A stretch of 64,000 nt of DNA, from assembly GCF_015278315.1 (NCBI RefSeq), contig NZ_JADIJE010000001.1, positions 186,001-250,000 on the forward strand, written 5' to 3'. Position 1 is the first letter of the stretch. Each line of letters opens with the position of its first letter. The DNA is from Microbacterium ureisolvens (lineage in GTDB: Bacteria > Actinomycetota > Actinomycetes > Actinomycetales > Microbacteriaceae). The notes under the pieces are model-generated. The model was not told where the DNA came from, searched no databases, and saw only the letters and a list, made by a program, of their open reading frames with translations. Below, one piece after another: positions 33,467 through 39,359 of the stretch. Made by a program: the position numbers and the translations under genes.

Positions 33467-34327
33467 TCATCCCGCCGATCGCGCCGCGAGCTCGGCTCGG
33501 GCGGCCTCGATCGCCACGTCCGTGGCCGCGTACACGTGCTCGGGACCGGGGAAGACGCCGCCGCGCACCTCGCGTGCGTAGGCCTCCACTCCCGCCACCA
33601 TGTCGGGCCCGACGGACGCGTACCGCTTCACGAACGCCGCCGTCTTGCCCTCGGTGATGCCGAGCAGGTCGTGGAGCACGAGCACCTGCCCGTCGGCGGG
33701 CCCGGCGCCGATCCCGATGACCGGGATCTCGAGCGCCGGCAGCACGACGGCGGCGACCTCGGCGGGGACGGCCTCGATCACGAGCACGCTCGCGCCGGCC
33801 TCCTGCACCGCGAGCGCCTCGCGCACGATCCGGGAGGCCGACTCGGCCGTGCGCCCCTGGGCGCGCAGCCCGCCGAGCGCCACCGCGGTCTGCGGTGTCA
33901 GGCCGACGTGGGCGACGACGGGGATGCCAGCCTCTGCGATCGCGCGGATGCGGCTGAGACGCGCGTCACCGCCGCCCTCGAGCTTGACGGCGTCGGCACC
34001 GGCCTCCTTCACGAAGCGCACCGCGGTGGCGATGGCCTGCTCGTCCGACACCTCGGTCGAGCCGAACGGCAGATCGCACACGACGAACGCCGAGCGCACC
34101 CCGCGACGCACCGCCCGCGCGAGCACCAGCATCTCCTCGACCGTGACGGCGACCGTGGAGTCGTTCCCCAGCACGACCTGAGCGCCGGAGTCGCCCACGA
34201 GCACCATGTCGACCTCGGCGTGCTCGGCGGTGCGGGCCGTCGGATAGTCGTAGGCCGTGACCATCACGATGGGCTCGCGATGCGCCTTCATCTCGGTCAG
34301 TCGCTGCAGTGTCACCTGTGCGCGCAT
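33467..34327 (-). CDS. panB: 3-methyl-2-oxobutanoate hydroxymethyltransferase (ketopantoate synthase)
   Basis: A 286-residue TIM-barrel enzyme catalysing the first committed step of pantothenate synthesis. Signature residues are visible in MVTAYDYPTARTAE, MVLVGDSGAQVVLGNDSTVAVTVEEML (Mg-binding Asp), FVVCDLPFGS, AVKLEGG, PVVAHVGLTPQTA and VIGIGAGPADGQVLVLHDLLG. The start overlaps the panC stop by one base. Last gene of the DUF2520, panC, panB operon. Confidence 0.96.
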   Translation of the reverse strand: MRAQVTLQRLTEMKAHREPIVMVTAYDYPTARTAEHAEVDMVLVGDSGAQVVLGNDSTVAVTVEEMLVLARAVRRGVRSAFVVCDLPFGSTEVSDEQAIATAVRFVKEAGADAVKLEGGGDARLSRIRAIAEAGIPVVAHVGLTPQTAVALGGLRAQGRTAESASRIVREALAVQEAGASVLVIEAVPAEVAAVVLPALEIPVIGIGAGPADGQVLVLHDLLGITEGKTAAFVKRYASVGPDMVAGVEAYAREVRGGVFPGPEHVYAATDVAIEAARAELAARSAG

Positions 34328-35172
34328 CAGGCACCTCCTATGACGGTGTTGTCGATGAGCCGCGTCGCCCCGACGCGGGCGGCGATCGCGACCAGCACCG
34401 CGCCCTCGACCACCGGTACGGGCGCGAAGGTGGCGGGGTCGACGAGCGCGACGTATTCGGGACGGATGCCGGATGCCTCGAGCGTCGCCATCGCTCGCGC
34501 CCGCAGGGCCTCGGGGTCGGTGATGCCGGTGGCCGCGGCATCCGTCGCCTCCTGGAGAGCGCGCGGAATGGCCAGCGCCCGCGTGCGCTCTTCGGGAGAC
34601 AGGCGCGTGTTGCGGCTCGAGCGGGCGAGGCCGTCGTCGTCGCGCGAGGTCGGGCAGACCATGAGGGTCACGGGGATGCCGAGATCGGCGACCACGCGCC
34701 GGATGACGGCTACCTGCTGCGCGTCCTTCGCGCCGAAGTAGGCGTGGTCGGGCAGTGCGGCCAGCAGCAGCTTGGTCACGACGGTGGCGACGCCGTCGAA
34801 GTGCGCGCGACCGCGCTCGGCGCCCTCCAGGGTCTCGGCGATCGCGCCCGTCACACTGACGGTCGTCGCGAAGCCCTGCGGATAGACCTCGGCGGCGTCG
34901 GGGGCGAAGACCACGTCGACCCCCTCGGCCTCGGCGAGCGCGAGGTCCGCCTCTTCGGAGCGAGGGTACGCGGCGAGATCGGACTGCTCGTTGAACTGCG
35001 TCGGATTGACGAAGATCGACATGACCACGGTCGCGTTGTCGCGCCGGGCGGCCCGCAGCAGCGTGGCGTGCCCCTCGTGCAGGGCACCCATCGTGGGGAC
35101 CAGGCCGACGGGCGCGGTTCGGCGGTCGCGCAGGGCCTCGCGCAGGTCGGCGACCTTGCGGACCACGATCAC
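34327..35172 (-). CDS. panC: Pantothenate synthetase (pantoate-beta-alanine ligase)
   Basis: A 281-residue ATP-dependent ligase. The nucleotidyltransferase motif VPTMGALHEGHATLLRAAR (about residues 24-42) contains the HxGH element, here HEGH. FVNPTQFNEQSDLAAYPR, YFGAKDAQQVAVIRRVV and SSRNTRLSPEERTRAL are all typical. It is coupled at its start to the DUF2520 gene (ATGA overlap) and at its end to panB. Confidence 0.96.
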   Translation of the reverse strand: MIVVRKVADLREALRDRRTAPVGLVPTMGALHEGHATLLRAARRDNATVVMSIFVNPTQFNEQSDLAAYPRSEEADLALAEAEGVDVVFAPDAAEVYPQGFATTVSVTGAIAETLEGAERGRAHFDGVATVVTKLLLAALPDHAYFGAKDAQQVAVIRRVVADLGIPVTLMVCPTSRDDDGLARSSRNTRLSPEERTRALAIPRALQEATDAAATGITDPEALRARAMATLEASGIRPEYVALVDPATFAPVPVVEGAVLVAIAARVGATRLIDNTVIGGA

Positions 35173-35912
35173 GACGCCACCCCCGCAGGAGGCCGGCCCG
35201 CCAGCTCCCGGGTGGCCGAGACGAGCGCCTCGAACAGCGCGGCGCGCTCGGGCAGACGCTCGTGCACCGCGGCGCGCTGGCGCTCGACGACCGCATCGTC
35301 GCCGCGGGCGATGGGCCCCGTGAGCGCGGCAGCGCCGTGCGCCTGCCAGTTCGCGACGGTCGCGCGCACGAGCGGCCCGAGCGCCTCGCGGGGGACGCCC
35401 GCCGTCGCGGCGAGGTCCTCGGCGAAGGACTCCAGGGTCACCAGGAAGTTCGATGCGATAGACGCTGCCGCGTGATACGCGGCGCGATCGGCGTCGTGCA
35501 CCTCGAACGGCTCCATGCCGAGCACGCCGGCGAGCGCGAGGGCCGTCTCGAGCGCCCTGGCGGTCGATCCTGCGACGGCCGCCGGCACGCCGTCGAAAGA
35601 GGTCGACGCGAGGACGGTCGTGAGGGGATGGATGCCGAGAGCCTCATGCGGTGCGAGCGGCTCGAGGGTCGTCGCCCCCGAGAAGTGGCCGACGAGGGGT
35701 CCGGGTGCGATGGCGGCGGCGGCAGCGGCGATCTCGGCGTCCGGCACCGCCAGCAGCACGACCTGCGAGTCCGCGACGGTGGCACCGCGGCCGAGCGGAC
35801 CCTGAACCTCCACCCCGGCGGCGTGCAGCGCGGACGCGACGGCCCGGCCGACACGGCCGTCGCCGACGATCGCCACGCGGGCAAGCGTGTGCGCGGAGTG
35901 CGAGTCCGGCAT
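35169..35912 (-). CDS. Rossmann/DUF2520 protein, candidate ketopantoate reductase
   Basis: A 247-residue NAD(P)-binding protein. The N-terminal Rossmann segment is RVAIVGDGRVGRAVASALHAAG, followed by VVLLAVPDAEIAAAA. The C-terminal DUF2520 all-helical domain has GIHPLTTVL, AYHAAASIASNFLVTLESFAEDLA and LVRATVANW. It is the first gene of an operon with panC and panB, both ends ATGA-coupled. Fold and context make it a candidate for the missing ketopantoate-reductase step; this is an inference. It is divergent from helR. Confidence 0.85.
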   Translation of the reverse strand: MPDSHSAHTLARVAIVGDGRVGRAVASALHAAGVEVQGPLGRGATVADSQVVLLAVPDAEIAAAAAAIAPGPLVGHFSGATTLEPLAPHEALGIHPLTTVLASTSFDGVPAAVAGSTARALETALALAGVLGMEPFEVHDADRAAYHAAASIASNFLVTLESFAEDLAATAGVPREALGPLVRATVANWQAHGAAALTGPIARGDDAVVERQRAAVHERLPERAALFEALVSATRELAGRPPAGVAS

Positions 35913-36075
35913 CGTCGTCGTCTCCCGTCGCGGCGCGTGGATCCGGTCCAGGACGGCTGGACCAGGTTCAAAAGTACCCGACGTGCCGATGCGCACCGGA
36001 ACGGAGGGGACCGGGGCGGGCGGTCTGCGCACGCAGAGGCGCGACTCCTCCTGCCATGTCCAGGATATCGGGCGG

Positions 36076-36101
36076 AGGGGGCCTTGCGGCAAGGGCCCCC
36101 T
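36076..36101. promoter_or_regulatory. RAE-like inverted repeat upstream of helR
   Basis: AGGGGGCCTTGCGGCAAGGGCCCCCT split as arms around the perfect palindrome CTTGC-G-GCAAG (36083-36093); flanking G5-6/C5-6 runs pair with one bulge. It matches, as I remember it, the rifamycin-associated element found before rifamycin-resistance genes including helR in actinobacteria. A CATACT box (36109-36114) follows, possibly a -10 element. It lies 97 bp before the helR start and is not followed by a T-run, so a terminator is unlikely. Confidence 0.75.
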
Positions 36102-36197
36102 GCGGGCGCATACTTGTCGGTCGCGACGCGTTCCCGCCATCTTCCCCCGCCATGTTCCGCCGAAAGCCGCGCCGCGATGCCGCCAGGAGGCGATGCC

Positions 36198-38336
36198 GTG
36201 ATTTCCCCTCAGACCACCCCTTTCCTCCTCCCCGACCGACTCGCCGCGAAGGCCGACCCCGCGCTCATCGGCGGTGACGAGGAGCATTTCGCAGCGATCG
36301 CCGACGCCCTCGCACGCTCGATCGCGGGCCTCGAGGAGCGGCTCGCCGATCTGCGCCGCCGGCCCGGCGGGCATGGGCAGGCGGGCCTGGAGCGCGACCT
36401 CGAGATCCACCGCGTCTCCGCCCGGCTGCGGGTGCTCCGCCGGTTCGGCGTCGACGCGTGCCTCGGCCGCATGGTGCCGGCCGACGGCTCGGAGCCCGTC
36501 TACATCGGGCGCTTCGGGCTGCTGGATGCCGACGGCCGCCGTCTGCTCGTGGACTGGCGGACCCCGGCTGCCGAGCCGTTCTTCGGCGCGACCCATGCAC
36601 ATCCGTCGGGCCTGGCCAGTCGCCGCCGCTACCGCTGGACCGGCGGCCGGGTGACGGACTACTGGGACGAGGTCTTCACCGCCGAGGGGCTCGACCACAA
36701 TGCGGCGCTCGACGATCAGTCGGCCTTCATCGCGAGCCTCGGAGCCAGCCGCTCCCCTCGCATGCGCGACGTGCTCGGCACGATCCAGGCCGATCAGGAT
36801 GCGATCATCCGCGCGGGCTCCCGCGGCGCACTGGTCGTCGACGGCGGACCCGGCACCGGCAAGACGGTCGTCGCGCTCCATCGCGCCGCCTACCTGGTCT
36901 ACTCCGACCCGCATCTCGGCGAGGGACGCGGCGGGGTCCTGTTCGTGGGTCCGAGTCCGGCCTATCTGTCCTACGTCGAGGATGTGCTGCCGAGCCTCGG
37001 CGAGGAGAGCGTGCAGACCTGCACGGTGCGCGACCTCGTGGCCGAGGGCGCCCACGCCGGCCCCGAGCGCGACCCGCTCGTCGCGCGTCTCAAGGCCGAC
37101 GCCCGCCTGGTCGACGCGATCGAGCCGGCGGTCGGCCTCTACGAGGAGCCGCCGACCGCGGCGGTCCTGATCGAGACGCCGTGGGGCGAGCTGTCGCTGA
37201 GCCCACAGGACTGGACGGAGGCGTTCTCGTCGGCCGAGGCGGGCCTGCCGCACAACGAGGCGCGCGATCAGGTGTGGGAGACGGTGCTCGACATCCTCAC
37301 CGACCAGGTCGACGGTGAGGAGGTGCCGCTGCACCAGCTGCGGCGGGCGCTCGCGCGCCACGAAGAGCTGACGCGCGTCTTCGGTCGCGCGTGGCCGCTG
37401 GTCGAGGCATCCGTCCTCGTCTCGGATCTGTGGACCGTGCCCGCGTATCTGCGCCGCTGTGCGCCGTGGCTCACCGCCGACGAGATCGAGGCGCTGCAGA
37501 GGACGGATGCCTCGGCCTGGACCGCGTCGGACCTGCCACTGCTGGACGCGGCCCGGCGCCGGCTCGGCGATCCGGCCGCCTCGCGTCGGCGCCGGCAGCG
37601 CGAGGCGACGCTGGCGCGGGAGCGCGAGTACATGGCGCAGGTCGTCGACCGCCTGAAGGAGGCCGGCGACGAGATGATGCAGTGGCTCGACGGCGACGAC
37701 CTGCGCAACAGCCTGGTCGACGAGTCGGTGGCTCCGGCCGCCGATCGGGATCTGCTCGCGGGACCGTTCGCGCACGTGGTCGTCGACGAGGCGCAGGAGC
37801 TCACGGACGCGGAATGGCGGATGCTGCTGGCACGGTGTCCGTCGCGGAGCTTCACGGTCGTCGGCGACCGCGCTCAGGCGCGGCACGGCTTCGGCGAGTC
37901 GTGGCAGGCGCGACTGGAGCACGCGGGGCTCACGGACGTCGAGATCGCCTCGCTCACCATCAACTACCGCACGCCGAGCGAGGTGATGGCCGAGGCGGAG
38001 CCTGTCATCCGCGCCGCGATCCCCGACGCGAACGTGCCGACGTCGATCCGTTCCAGCGGCATCCCGGTGCGGCACGCCGCCGTGGCCGAGCGGGATGCGA
38101 TCCTCGGCGACTGGCTGGCGGCGCACCCGGAGGGCATCGCCTGTGTGATCGGCGACCCGTCGTTCACCGCCGGTGAGCGCGTGCGGTCGCTGACGCCGGA
38201 GCTGGCGAAGGGTCTCGAGTTCGACCTGGTCGTGCTCGTGGAGCCGTCGCGGTTCGGCGAGGGCATCGAAGGGGCGGTCGATCGCTACGTCGCGATGACC
38301 CGCGCGACCGAGCGCCTCGTGGTGCTGGAGGGCTGA
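36198..38336 (+). CDS. helR: HelD-like RNA polymerase recycling motor ATPase (HelR type)
   Basis: A 712-residue UvrD/Rep-like superfamily 1 ATPase. The N-terminus has a coiled-coil-like arm region (HFAAIADALARSIAGLEERLADLRRR), then a structural region with VYIGRFGLLDADGRRLLVDWRTPAAEPFF. Walker A is GGPGTGKTVVALHRAAYL, motif II VVVDEAQELTDAEW, motif III VVGDRAQ, and the C-terminal lobe carries AKGLEFDLVVLVEP and YVAMTRATERLVVL. HelD/HelR proteins pull RNA polymerase off DNA; HelR gives rifamycin tolerance in Streptomyces. GTG 36198 has AGGAGG seven bases upstream. The RAE-like element upstream supports the HelR assignment. Confidence 0.9.
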   Translation: MISPQTTPFLLPDRLAAKADPALIGGDEEHFAAIADALARSIAGLEERLADLRRRPGGHGQAGLERDLEIHRVSARLRVLRRFGVDACLGRMVPADGSEPVYIGRFGLLDADGRRLLVDWRTPAAEPFFGATHAHPSGLASRRRYRWTGGRVTDYWDEVFTAEGLDHNAALDDQSAFIASLGASRSPRMRDVLGTIQADQDAIIRAGSRGALVVDGGPGTGKTVVALHRAAYLVYSDPHLGEGRGGVLFVGPSPAYLSYVEDVLPSLGEESVQTCTVRDLVAEGAHAGPERDPLVARLKADARLVDAIEPAVGLYEEPPTAAVLIETPWGELSLSPQDWTEAFSSAEAGLPHNEARDQVWETVLDILTDQVDGEEVPLHQLRRALARHEELTRVFGRAWPLVEASVLVSDLWTVPAYLRRCAPWLTADEIEALQRTDASAWTASDLPLLDAARRRLGDPAASRRRRQREATLAREREYMAQVVDRLKEAGDEMMQWLDGDDLRNSLVDESVAPAADRDLLAGPFAHVVVDEAQELTDAEWRMLLARCPSRSFTVVGDRAQARHGFGESWQARLEHAGLTDVEIASLTINYRTPSEVMAEAEPVIRAAIPDANVPTSIRSSGIPVRHAAVAERDAILGDWLAAHPEGIACVIGDPSFTAGERVRSLTPELAKGLEFDLVVLVEPSRFGEGIEGAVDRYVAMTRATERLVVLEG

Positions 38337-38387: not shown

Positions 38388-39359
38388 GTGAGCACTGACG
38401 TCGAAAGGGAGGCCTCCGAAGCCGTCGAGGCTGCGGACGGCGAGACGCGCGGATCGCTCGTGCGCTCGCTCCTCGCCGTCGTCGCCAACGTCGGTGTGCT
38501 GACCGCCCTCCTCGTGTACTTCGGCTGGGTGCGCAGCGACCAGATGTCGAAGATGCTCGGCGTCGACGAAGCCATCTTCGGAATGACAGTCGACGACTAC
38601 GTCCGCCGCAGCGTGCAGCCGGTCGTGCTCCTTCCCATCTGCGCGGCGATCGCGGGCCTCGGGTGGGTCGCCCTTGATCAGTGGCTCCGTCGGCGCCGCG
38701 TGCGGTTGGGGAACGATGATCGCATCGTCTCTCGGGTGGCGCAATGGATGTGGCTCATCGCCATCGGCGTGTTCGCGCTGGGCCTGCTTCTCGGGCTCAT
38801 CGGCTATCCGGTGACGTACATTGCCGCCCCCCTCGTCTGTGCCGGCGGCATGCTCCTGCTGCTCTACGGGCTGATGCTGCGCGGCGGATTGCCCGACGCA
38901 GTCGGCTTCGCGCCGATGACCGAGGGTGTGCTGCGAGGTGCGATCGCGATCCTCGCCGCCATCGGCCTCTTCTGGTCTGCCATGAACTACGCCACGGTGG
39001 AGGGGACGGAACTCGCCCGCGACTTCCCGAACCAGATCGAGACACTGCCGGGAGTGATGGTCGACAGCGTCACGCCGCTCGACATCGTGTCGCCGGGCGT
39101 CACCGTGACATGCGCTGGATCCGGAGACGAGGTCCGCTACCGATACCGCGGGCTGCGGCTGCTCGAGTCGACGGGCGGCAACTACTTCCTCGTCTCCGAC
39201 AGATGGACATTCGACTACGGGGTGGTCGTCATGCTGCCTGTGGATGGCGACGGACTGCGGTTCACCTTTGTGCGCGACGTGTTCGGGATCGCGGATGCCG
39301 GAGGTTTCGGCCCATGCACGACACCGACGTCAGAGGGCGAGGTGGCGGGGCAGCGCTGA
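38388..39359 (+). CDS. Membrane protein with C-terminal extracytoplasmic domain, unknown
   Basis: A 323-residue protein starting at GTG 38388. It has about five membrane helices (SLLAVVANVGVLTALLVYFG, VVLLPICAAIAGLGWVAL, MWLIAIGVFALGLLLGLIGYPV, LVCAGGMLLLLYGLML, GAIAILAAIGLFWSAM). A C-terminal domain of about 110 residues contains two cysteines (VTVTCAGSGDEV, GFGPCTTPT) that could form a disulfide outside the cell. It lies 59 bp before a lipoprotein gene, probably as an operon. No family recognised. Confidence 0.75.
   Translation: MSTDVEREASEAVEAADGETRGSLVRSLLAVVANVGVLTALLVYFGWVRSDQMSKMLGVDEAIFGMTVDDYVRRSVQPVVLLPICAAIAGLGWVALDQWLRRRRVRLGNDDRIVSRVAQWMWLIAIGVFALGLLLGLIGYPVTYIAAPLVCAGGMLLLLYGLMLRGGLPDAVGFAPMTEGVLRGAIAILAAIGLFWSAMNYATVEGTELARDFPNQIETLPGVMVDSVTPLDIVSPGVTVTCAGSGDEVRYRYRGLRLLESTGGNYFLVSDRWTFDYGVVVMLPVDGDGLRFTFVRDVFGIADAGGFGPCTTPTSEGEVAGQR

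Follow-up and report, generated by a model that had tools for sequence, protein, structure and literature searches.

The locus examined here, an inverted repeat and a helR gene lying in a window of 64,000 nucleotides from Microbacterium ureisolvens (positions 186,001 to 250,000 of contig NZ_JADIJE010000001.1), has its closest described counterparts in the pairs of rifamycin-associated element (RAE) and helR of Streptomyces venezuelae (SVEN_6029) and Mycobacterium abscessus (MAB_3189c), in which, as here, the RAE palindrome stands before a class II HelD/HelR gene (PMC10719064). Induction and resistance have been demonstrated in those species, and reviews report that their HelR proteins displace rifamycin from RNA polymerase; for the present locus both are predictions from sequence. 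The mycobacterial RAE shares sequence with the -35 of the promoter downstream of it, as the element here does with a predicted -35; the portion of the review that is available describes two sense promoters and does not mention an away-facing one (PMC10719064). Bacillus subtilis provides a second design, the rifampicin alarm of helD and pps, which resembles our locus in its helD-family gene, its drug and its closely placed sense and opposing promoters (PMC12802891). Its starts converge, 39 bp apart, whereas the two motifs at our RAE diverge and share the -35 palindrome, so that the convergent dual-promoter layout is not found here. According to the accessible text of that work (2026), actinobacterial helD genes have an RAE instead, the precise mechanism of which its authors leave open. 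Finally, bidirectional promoters founded on DNA symmetry (PMC12825309) likewise consist of pseudo-symmetric DNA on which RNA polymerase adopts two exclusive orientations; unlike those promoters, as far as the available text describes them, the RAE has its symmetry centred on overlapping -35 boxes and is kept across the class before rifamycin genes.

Judged by its letters, the element in our window is what the accessible parts of three reviews (PMC10719064, PMC8655204, PMC12802891) call an RAE, and with helR it makes up an ordinary RAE-helR unit in a genus already listed for this gene. Microbacterium helR genes, mip_00070 of PAMC 28756 and mhos_01135 of M. hominis, were placed in the helR group in 2021 (PMC8655204), and a comparison with that gene listing gives genus and protein group in common with the helR studied here. 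The RAE-helR pair itself is hence not new; what may be new is the mirrored promoter-like anatomy described below. This anatomy suggests, with about as much to be said for the idea as against it, that the RAE is a deeply conserved bidirectional promoter and not a plain transcription-factor box, and that it is the actinobacterial counterpart of the two-promoter alarm of B. subtilis. Two promoters, a weak one for the resistance gene and a more consensus-like one facing away, would then draw overlapping -35 boxes from one palindrome. If real, such an anatomy alters how the RAE should be studied and, through its mirrored second promoter motif, narrows the question of rifamycin sensing to one RNA end; if true, the bidirectional reading also joins two known designs of rifampicin response.

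The anatomy was derived from a gap-free alignment of 94 modules picked on core and HelR only, 93 of them complete, which collapse at 90% identity to 77 non-redundant modules (28 from Microbacterium, 49 from others). The core is numbered 0 to 10, and the flanks examined comprise 62 columns, -31 to -1 and 11 to 41. The features of the element and its gene in the window are as follows.

36076..36101, no strand: RAE inverted repeat, 26 nt, right arm with one extra G; stem fold -20.3 kcal/mol; arm covariation over 227 distinct modules
36083..36093, no strand: RAE core CTTGCGGCAAG, single genomic copy; exact core before HelR in 68/81 loci
36084..36089, plus strand: helR-facing promoter, predicted -35 TTGCGG; in 72/77 modules CAnnnT lies 19 bp away
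36109..36114, plus strand: predicted -10 CATACT of the helR-facing promoter; A+27 and T+31 invariant (77/77); geometry as in the Mycobacterium smegmatis arr promoter with mapped RNA start
near 36120-36123, plus strand: predicted RNA start of the helR-facing promoter
36087..36092, minus strand: predicted -35 TTGCCG of the away-facing promoter, the core read on the minus strand; overlaps the helR-facing -35
36062..36067, minus strand: predicted -10 TATCCT of the away-facing promoter; TAnnnT at 19 bp in 73/77
36061-36066, plus strand: the away-facing -10 box read on the plus strand, CAGGAT; CA/TAnnnT in 76/77
36055, minus strand: predicted RNA start (G) of the away-facing promoter; C at -28 in 77/77 modules and 30/30 class loci
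36198..38336, plus strand: helR, class II HelD-type RNA polymerase recycling ATPase, 712 aa, recognised by NF041254, 6yxu and motifs

A preliminary description of this DNA had proposed the inverted repeat at 36076-36101 as an RAE, and both the repeat and its identity stand. The 26 nt are present (AGGGGGCCTTGCGGCAAGGGCCCCCT), the core is identical to that in oligonucleotides printed for the upstream region of M. smegmatis arr (PMC7882622), and the same geometry and position before rifamycin genes recur across the class. The match was judged against the accessible description in a review (a palindrome of 19 bp that overlaps with the -35 element of promoter 2; PMC10719064) and not against the founding consensus; the window shows the palindrome, the CTTGCnGCAAG core and the G-run/C-run arms. 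The repeat alone proves little, because the window has 199 perfect 5-1-5 repeats and five repeats, the RAE repeat included, with a comparable stem. A genome-wide scan for other copies returned the core CTTGCNGCAAG once in 4,493,068 bases, beginning 115 bp upstream of the helR start codon, and its reversed-letter control five times per strand; helR is thus predicted to be the sole gene of this genome under an exact-core RAE. That the repeat is a chance one in front of a constitutive helR could be argued from the five repeats of such strength and from the HelR loci that lack the element, but the single genomic copy lies before helR and the exact spacing recurs in 176/394 genomes of the class, which renders this explanation extremely improbable. 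Most of 149 genomes of the genus also contain fewer copies of the core than of its reversed control, which looks like avoidance of stray copies (by eye, and uncorrected for base or codon use).

The association of the module with HelR was followed in 81 loci, consisting of the window and the 80 closest of a named collection. The exact core lies upstream of HelR within 500 bp in 63/81 and within 1000 bp in 65/81, a figure that rises to 68/81 when three loci with the module 1.4-1.5 kb upstream are counted, and one-base variants of the core occupy 4/81. In all 29 best loci fetched from the genus, our own excluded, the core precedes the extrapolated start of HelR by 27-141 bp. Within the 149 Microbacterium genomes helR is patchy, with strong matches (E below 1e-100) in 65 by hand count, and at least one core is found in 60/65 of these against 29/84 of the others (hand cross-tabulation). 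Across the class, the module with the spacing of the window (TA-N15-core-N15-CANNNT) is present in the 176 genomes cited above; the reversed pattern gives one match among 394 rows (by eye), and one base added to the left spacer leaves the module in only 2/394 genomes. Every one of 30 class loci fetched, our own included, leads a gene of rifamycin type: 23 HelR (22 recognised via blastp and one via profile), three Rox above the cut-off, one Rox-like, one Rgt-like and two Rph, of which the Rox-like, the Rgt-like, the two Rph and one HelR (locus L150) fall short of full-length cut-offs; the locus end truncates the two Rph and the HelR of L150.

Some of these RAE modules lead genes other than a simple helR. 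Among 16 fetched genus loci with a core and no HelR match, only L028 carries all four anchor columns, and on its minus strand a full module precedes a Rox gene (826.6 bits, cut-off 800) in a genome without HelR match. In Actinomadura, a Streptomyces metagenome-assembled genome and Microtetraspora (L042, L044 and L046), the module stands before a gene for an Rgt-like glycosyltransferase (602, 523 and 527 bits, cut-off 800), followed by helR. In Nonomuraea (L106:2107-5148) it leads a single open frame of 1014 aa in which HelR occupies residues 307-1012; by eye the N-terminal part has an Rgt-like start, but it gives no Rgt match at 1e-50.

The flanks of the core hold only five invariant columns (77/77 modules, 62 columns): C at -28, A at -21, T at -17, A at +27 and T at +31. 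Two pairs among them, -21/+31 and -17/+27, mirror each other about the centre of the palindrome and fit the key A and T of a -10 box. The chance that five random columns include these four mirror columns is 9e-6 if columns are exchangeable, a post hoc figure that is valid for any -10 reading. On the side of helR, the hexamer at +26..+31 reads CAnnnT in 72/77 modules and GAnnnT in the remaining five, 19 bp from TTGCGG, so that the RAE overlaps the -35 of a downstream promoter-like motif (TTGCGG-19-CAnnnT), with CATACT at 36109 in our window. On the minus strand, the hexamer at -16..-21 reads TAnnnT in 73/77 and GATAAT in the remaining four, 19 bp from TTGCCG. Neither CAnnnT (helR-facing) nor TAnnnT (away-facing) recurs in the 77 modules at spacers of 14-18 or 20-24. 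The -35 boxes within the core carry no independent weight, since modules were searched for by the core itself. The two -10 boxes differ in that the away-facing one keeps the consensus T in 73/77 modules and the helR-facing one in 0/77, and conservation stops near -36. The element thus has mirrored parts in one pseudo-symmetric stretch, as expected of a bidirectional promoter, the upstream box alone having no fixed direction. Just beyond the helR-facing -10, at 36116-36127, lies another short dyad that the modules conserve, as GTCGGTCGCGAC in our window and as GGCCGAGGCC in many others.

The helR-facing half of this anatomy gains outside bench support, because the RNA start of M. smegmatis arr maps to the same geometry. 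In the oligonucleotides printed in PMC7882622 the core is followed after 15 nt by CACAAT, at -43..-38 relative to the arr start codon, and the RNA start is cited there at -31, 7 nt past the -10; the promoter positions were derived from these oligonucleotides in the present analysis, and the part of the paper available does not use the name RAE. In the same work, dCas9 directed at the core region (guide 5) or at the -10 (guide 9) sensitised cells most. A search of the openly accessible literature, subscription journals being beyond its reach, returned no description of an away-facing promoter within an RAE.

The explanation that we find best, and consider slightly more probable than not, combines this anatomy with a regulator. 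The palindromic core would supply a -35-like box on each strand, each with a mirrored -10-like box 19 bp away, so that one promoter pair faces helR and the other faces away, the two overlapping and competing. A putative factor reading the palindrome would compete with polymerase at the shared -35 and hold the promoters off; exposure to rifamycin would release it, HelR would be made, and HelR would clear rifamycin-blocked RNA polymerase.

Several observations weigh against this explanation. A spacer of 19 bp is long for a sigma-A promoter. Base-pair covariation is seen between the arms, although a fixed protein site would not require it. The module is absent from 9/81 HelR loci (two of these with less than 300 bp of upstream DNA), and 5/65 Microbacterium genomes with a strong HelR match have the exact core nowhere. 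The basal two-way promoters of Escherichia coli are, in the accessible text of PMC12825309, too weak for polymerases to compete. Most directly, the upstream box is also a -10 on the plus strand, CA/TAnnnT at -22..-17 (76/77 modules, 28/28 in Microbacterium), and in M. smegmatis helD a sense promoter P1, whose start has been mapped, reportedly lies about 20 bp upstream of the RAE (PMC10719064). Since AnnnT is its own mirror, A-21 and T-17 fit either direction, and this neutrality of the upstream box has lowered our confidence in the away-facing promoter, in the bidirectional reading and in the explanation as a whole.

The plus-strand reading of the box and the reported P1 are also what speaks for tandem promoters, in which the upstream box would be the -10 of a P1 running in the same direction, the RAE would lie between P1 and P2, and nothing would fire away from helR. 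This arrangement seems doubtful, for in the 77 modules the sense reading of the box finds no TTG at spacers of 14-22 and no TG extension, a sense start would by our own count sit about 6 bp, and not about 20 bp, before the 19-bp RAE, and the arrangement accounts neither for the invariance of C-28 nor for the strict distance that the box keeps from the core. Read away from helR, that C is a G seven bases past the -10, preceded by T in 78% of the modules, and class loci picked without regard to column -28 have C-28 in 30/30 (our own included) and A-21 in 29/30. The absence of a sense -35 or TG extension, the invariant C-28 and the strict distance between box and core favour the away-facing reading, and we lean towards taking the upstream box as the -10 of an active promoter that faces away from helR.

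Mirror symmetry at -21/+31 and -17/+27, together with covarying arms, could also stem from a protein that binds the whole dyad, the A/T columns being outer contacts of a dimeric or tetrameric regulator on one large symmetric operator and the upstream box no promoter at all. We regard this as unlikely: the helR-facing pair coincides with the geometry of the mapped arr start in M. smegmatis, the symmetry is broken at the very next position (A at -16 in 95%, C at +26 in 94%), and C-28 stands without a counterpart across the centre (position +38 is C in 57% and T in 39%).

As to how two overlapping promoters could sense the drug, mutual exclusion as the whole mechanism was rejected: modelled with a fraction of the polymerase bound to rifampicin, two promoters that exclude each other gave no rise in helR output in any of 200,000 random parameter sets, whereas removing a blocking factor raised it more than 10-fold in 28% of the sets. 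A search with core positions 0, 4, 5, 6 and 10 left free (arm GGG and CC fixed) matched 160/394 genomes, with no reversed match across the 394 (by eye). Among the 150 matches listed, none differed at position 0 or 10, and eight differed at 4 or 6 (by eye). A palindrome-reading factor is hence favoured, because mutual exclusion cannot induce and because the core is tighter than two TTG boxes need, and we give the putative factor an even chance of being the sensor. MerR-type control was considered for the 19-bp spacers. MerR sites lie in the promoter spacer, and this candidate was set aside since the palindrome is centred on the -35.

Sensing without any factor remains a strong rival. Opposing or upstream polymerase traffic would keep the helR promoter low, and rifampicin-arrested polymerase would lift the interference, as at helD of B. 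subtilis. In its favour, gene family and drug are common to both, the consensus T is kept in the away-facing -10 (73/77) and never in the helR-facing one (0/77), and the patchy presence of helR suits a sensor that every host already has; conservation ends near -36, and therefore the away-facing RNA would be a cis device and not a gene. The motifs here, however, stand back to back and share a -35, whereas the B. subtilis promoters converge, and shortening the gap there until polymerases clash abolished induction (PMC12802891, accessible text). Nor can mutual exclusion alone induce, and the fixed core positions 0 and 10 stay unexplained. On balance we hold the factor-free version to be rather improbable.

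The arms of the palindrome covary. Over 82 sequences, none of 100 arm swaps folded as well as the native arms at arm lengths of 8 and 14, and 8/100 did at 20; in Microbacterium alone the figures are 9, 1 and 6 of 100 at lengths 8, 14 and 20. Of the symmetric pairs, 6-8 score above every one of 300 shuffles and pair 5 fails to do so (42/300), while pairs 2-4 show little variation. The symmetric diagonal has the highest Watson-Crick excess, and its best pair, -6/+16, ranks first by that measure and eighth by mutual information. These tests employed column shuffles and sequence weights and no tree, so that kinship is partly controlled and the z-scores, those below included, are too generous.

Covariation of this sort could reflect an RNA hairpin or attenuator, with an upstream promoter transcribing the palindrome and the hairpin governing read-through. 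Watson-Crick pairs at positions 5-8 number 433 against 350 expected from column shuffling, the symmetric diagonal is the highest, and A-C is depleted at pair 1 (z -3.0), all as a hairpin would have it. Neither favoured RNA start, however, precedes the palindrome in its own direction, so the palindrome would be in neither RNA, and among pairs 5-8 G-T has no advantage over A-C (z -1.9 and -0.6), for which reason a hairpin is not indicated; as a test for an RNA strand, this comparison is not decisive. In 177/227 modules the sense strand gives the better fold of the two strands, but swapped arms show a nearly equal gap (-1.93 vs -1.79 kcal/mol). We therefore deem an RNA hairpin very unlikely. The sole Rfam match reached 18.7 bits, far under the gathering score of 60, and an RNA family was rejected.

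The gene at 36198 had been described as a class II HelD/HelR-type ATPase, an assignment that profile, structure and motifs bear out. It starts with GTG behind AGGAGG and runs in one frame with no internal stop. The protein scores 1225.5 bits against NCBIfam NF041254 'motor_HelR' (cut-off 750) and stays below the cut-offs of the HelR_2 and HelD_MYCSM profiles. Its residues 42-710 align with the class II HelD of M. smegmatis (PDB 6yxu, E 2.9e-105), and the alignment continues with short gaps through the middle region, where we presume the borders of the primary channel loop, expected near the rifamycin pocket in this class, to lie. The closest named HelR, at 91%, is that of M. hibisci (locus L032). 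DWRTP is found at 119, GGPGTGKT at 216 and DEAQ at 530, and among these motifs is the one that we take to mark class II HelD. In the RpoB of this genome, the rifampicin region shows no change at what we assume to be the usual resistance sites and presumably is of the sensitive form; HelR would therefore have a target. No Arr gene was found in the genome, and neither Pfam nor NCBIfam gives a match to the gene that follows helR (38388-39359) at E 0.001. By analogy with the named families, this HelR would act by displacing rifamycin, and RAE and HelR together very probably provide rifamycin-inducible protection.

The preliminary description had also suggested that the adjoining pantothenate (pan) operon might be affected by the element. 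The operon runs away from helR and includes these genes.

35169..35912, minus strand: DUF2520 gene, first of the divergent pan operon; PF10728, E 7.8e-30; beside 5/39 Microbacterium helR loci
34327..35172, minus strand: panC; TIGR00018, 298.6 bits, cut-off 212.75; beside 4/39 Microbacterium helR loci

Neighbours were counted in flanks of 1.5-3 kb, with some species represented twice. They are rarely kept, and the pan operon was rejected as a regular partner of RAE-helR; as DUF2520 and panC lie beside only five and four of the 39 loci, the link is local at best. In this genome, on the other hand, the predicted away-facing promoter does point at the DUF2520-panC operon, and a pan leader beginning at the predicted start, 36055, is possible; 143 bases separate that position from the start codon of DUF2520 (35912).

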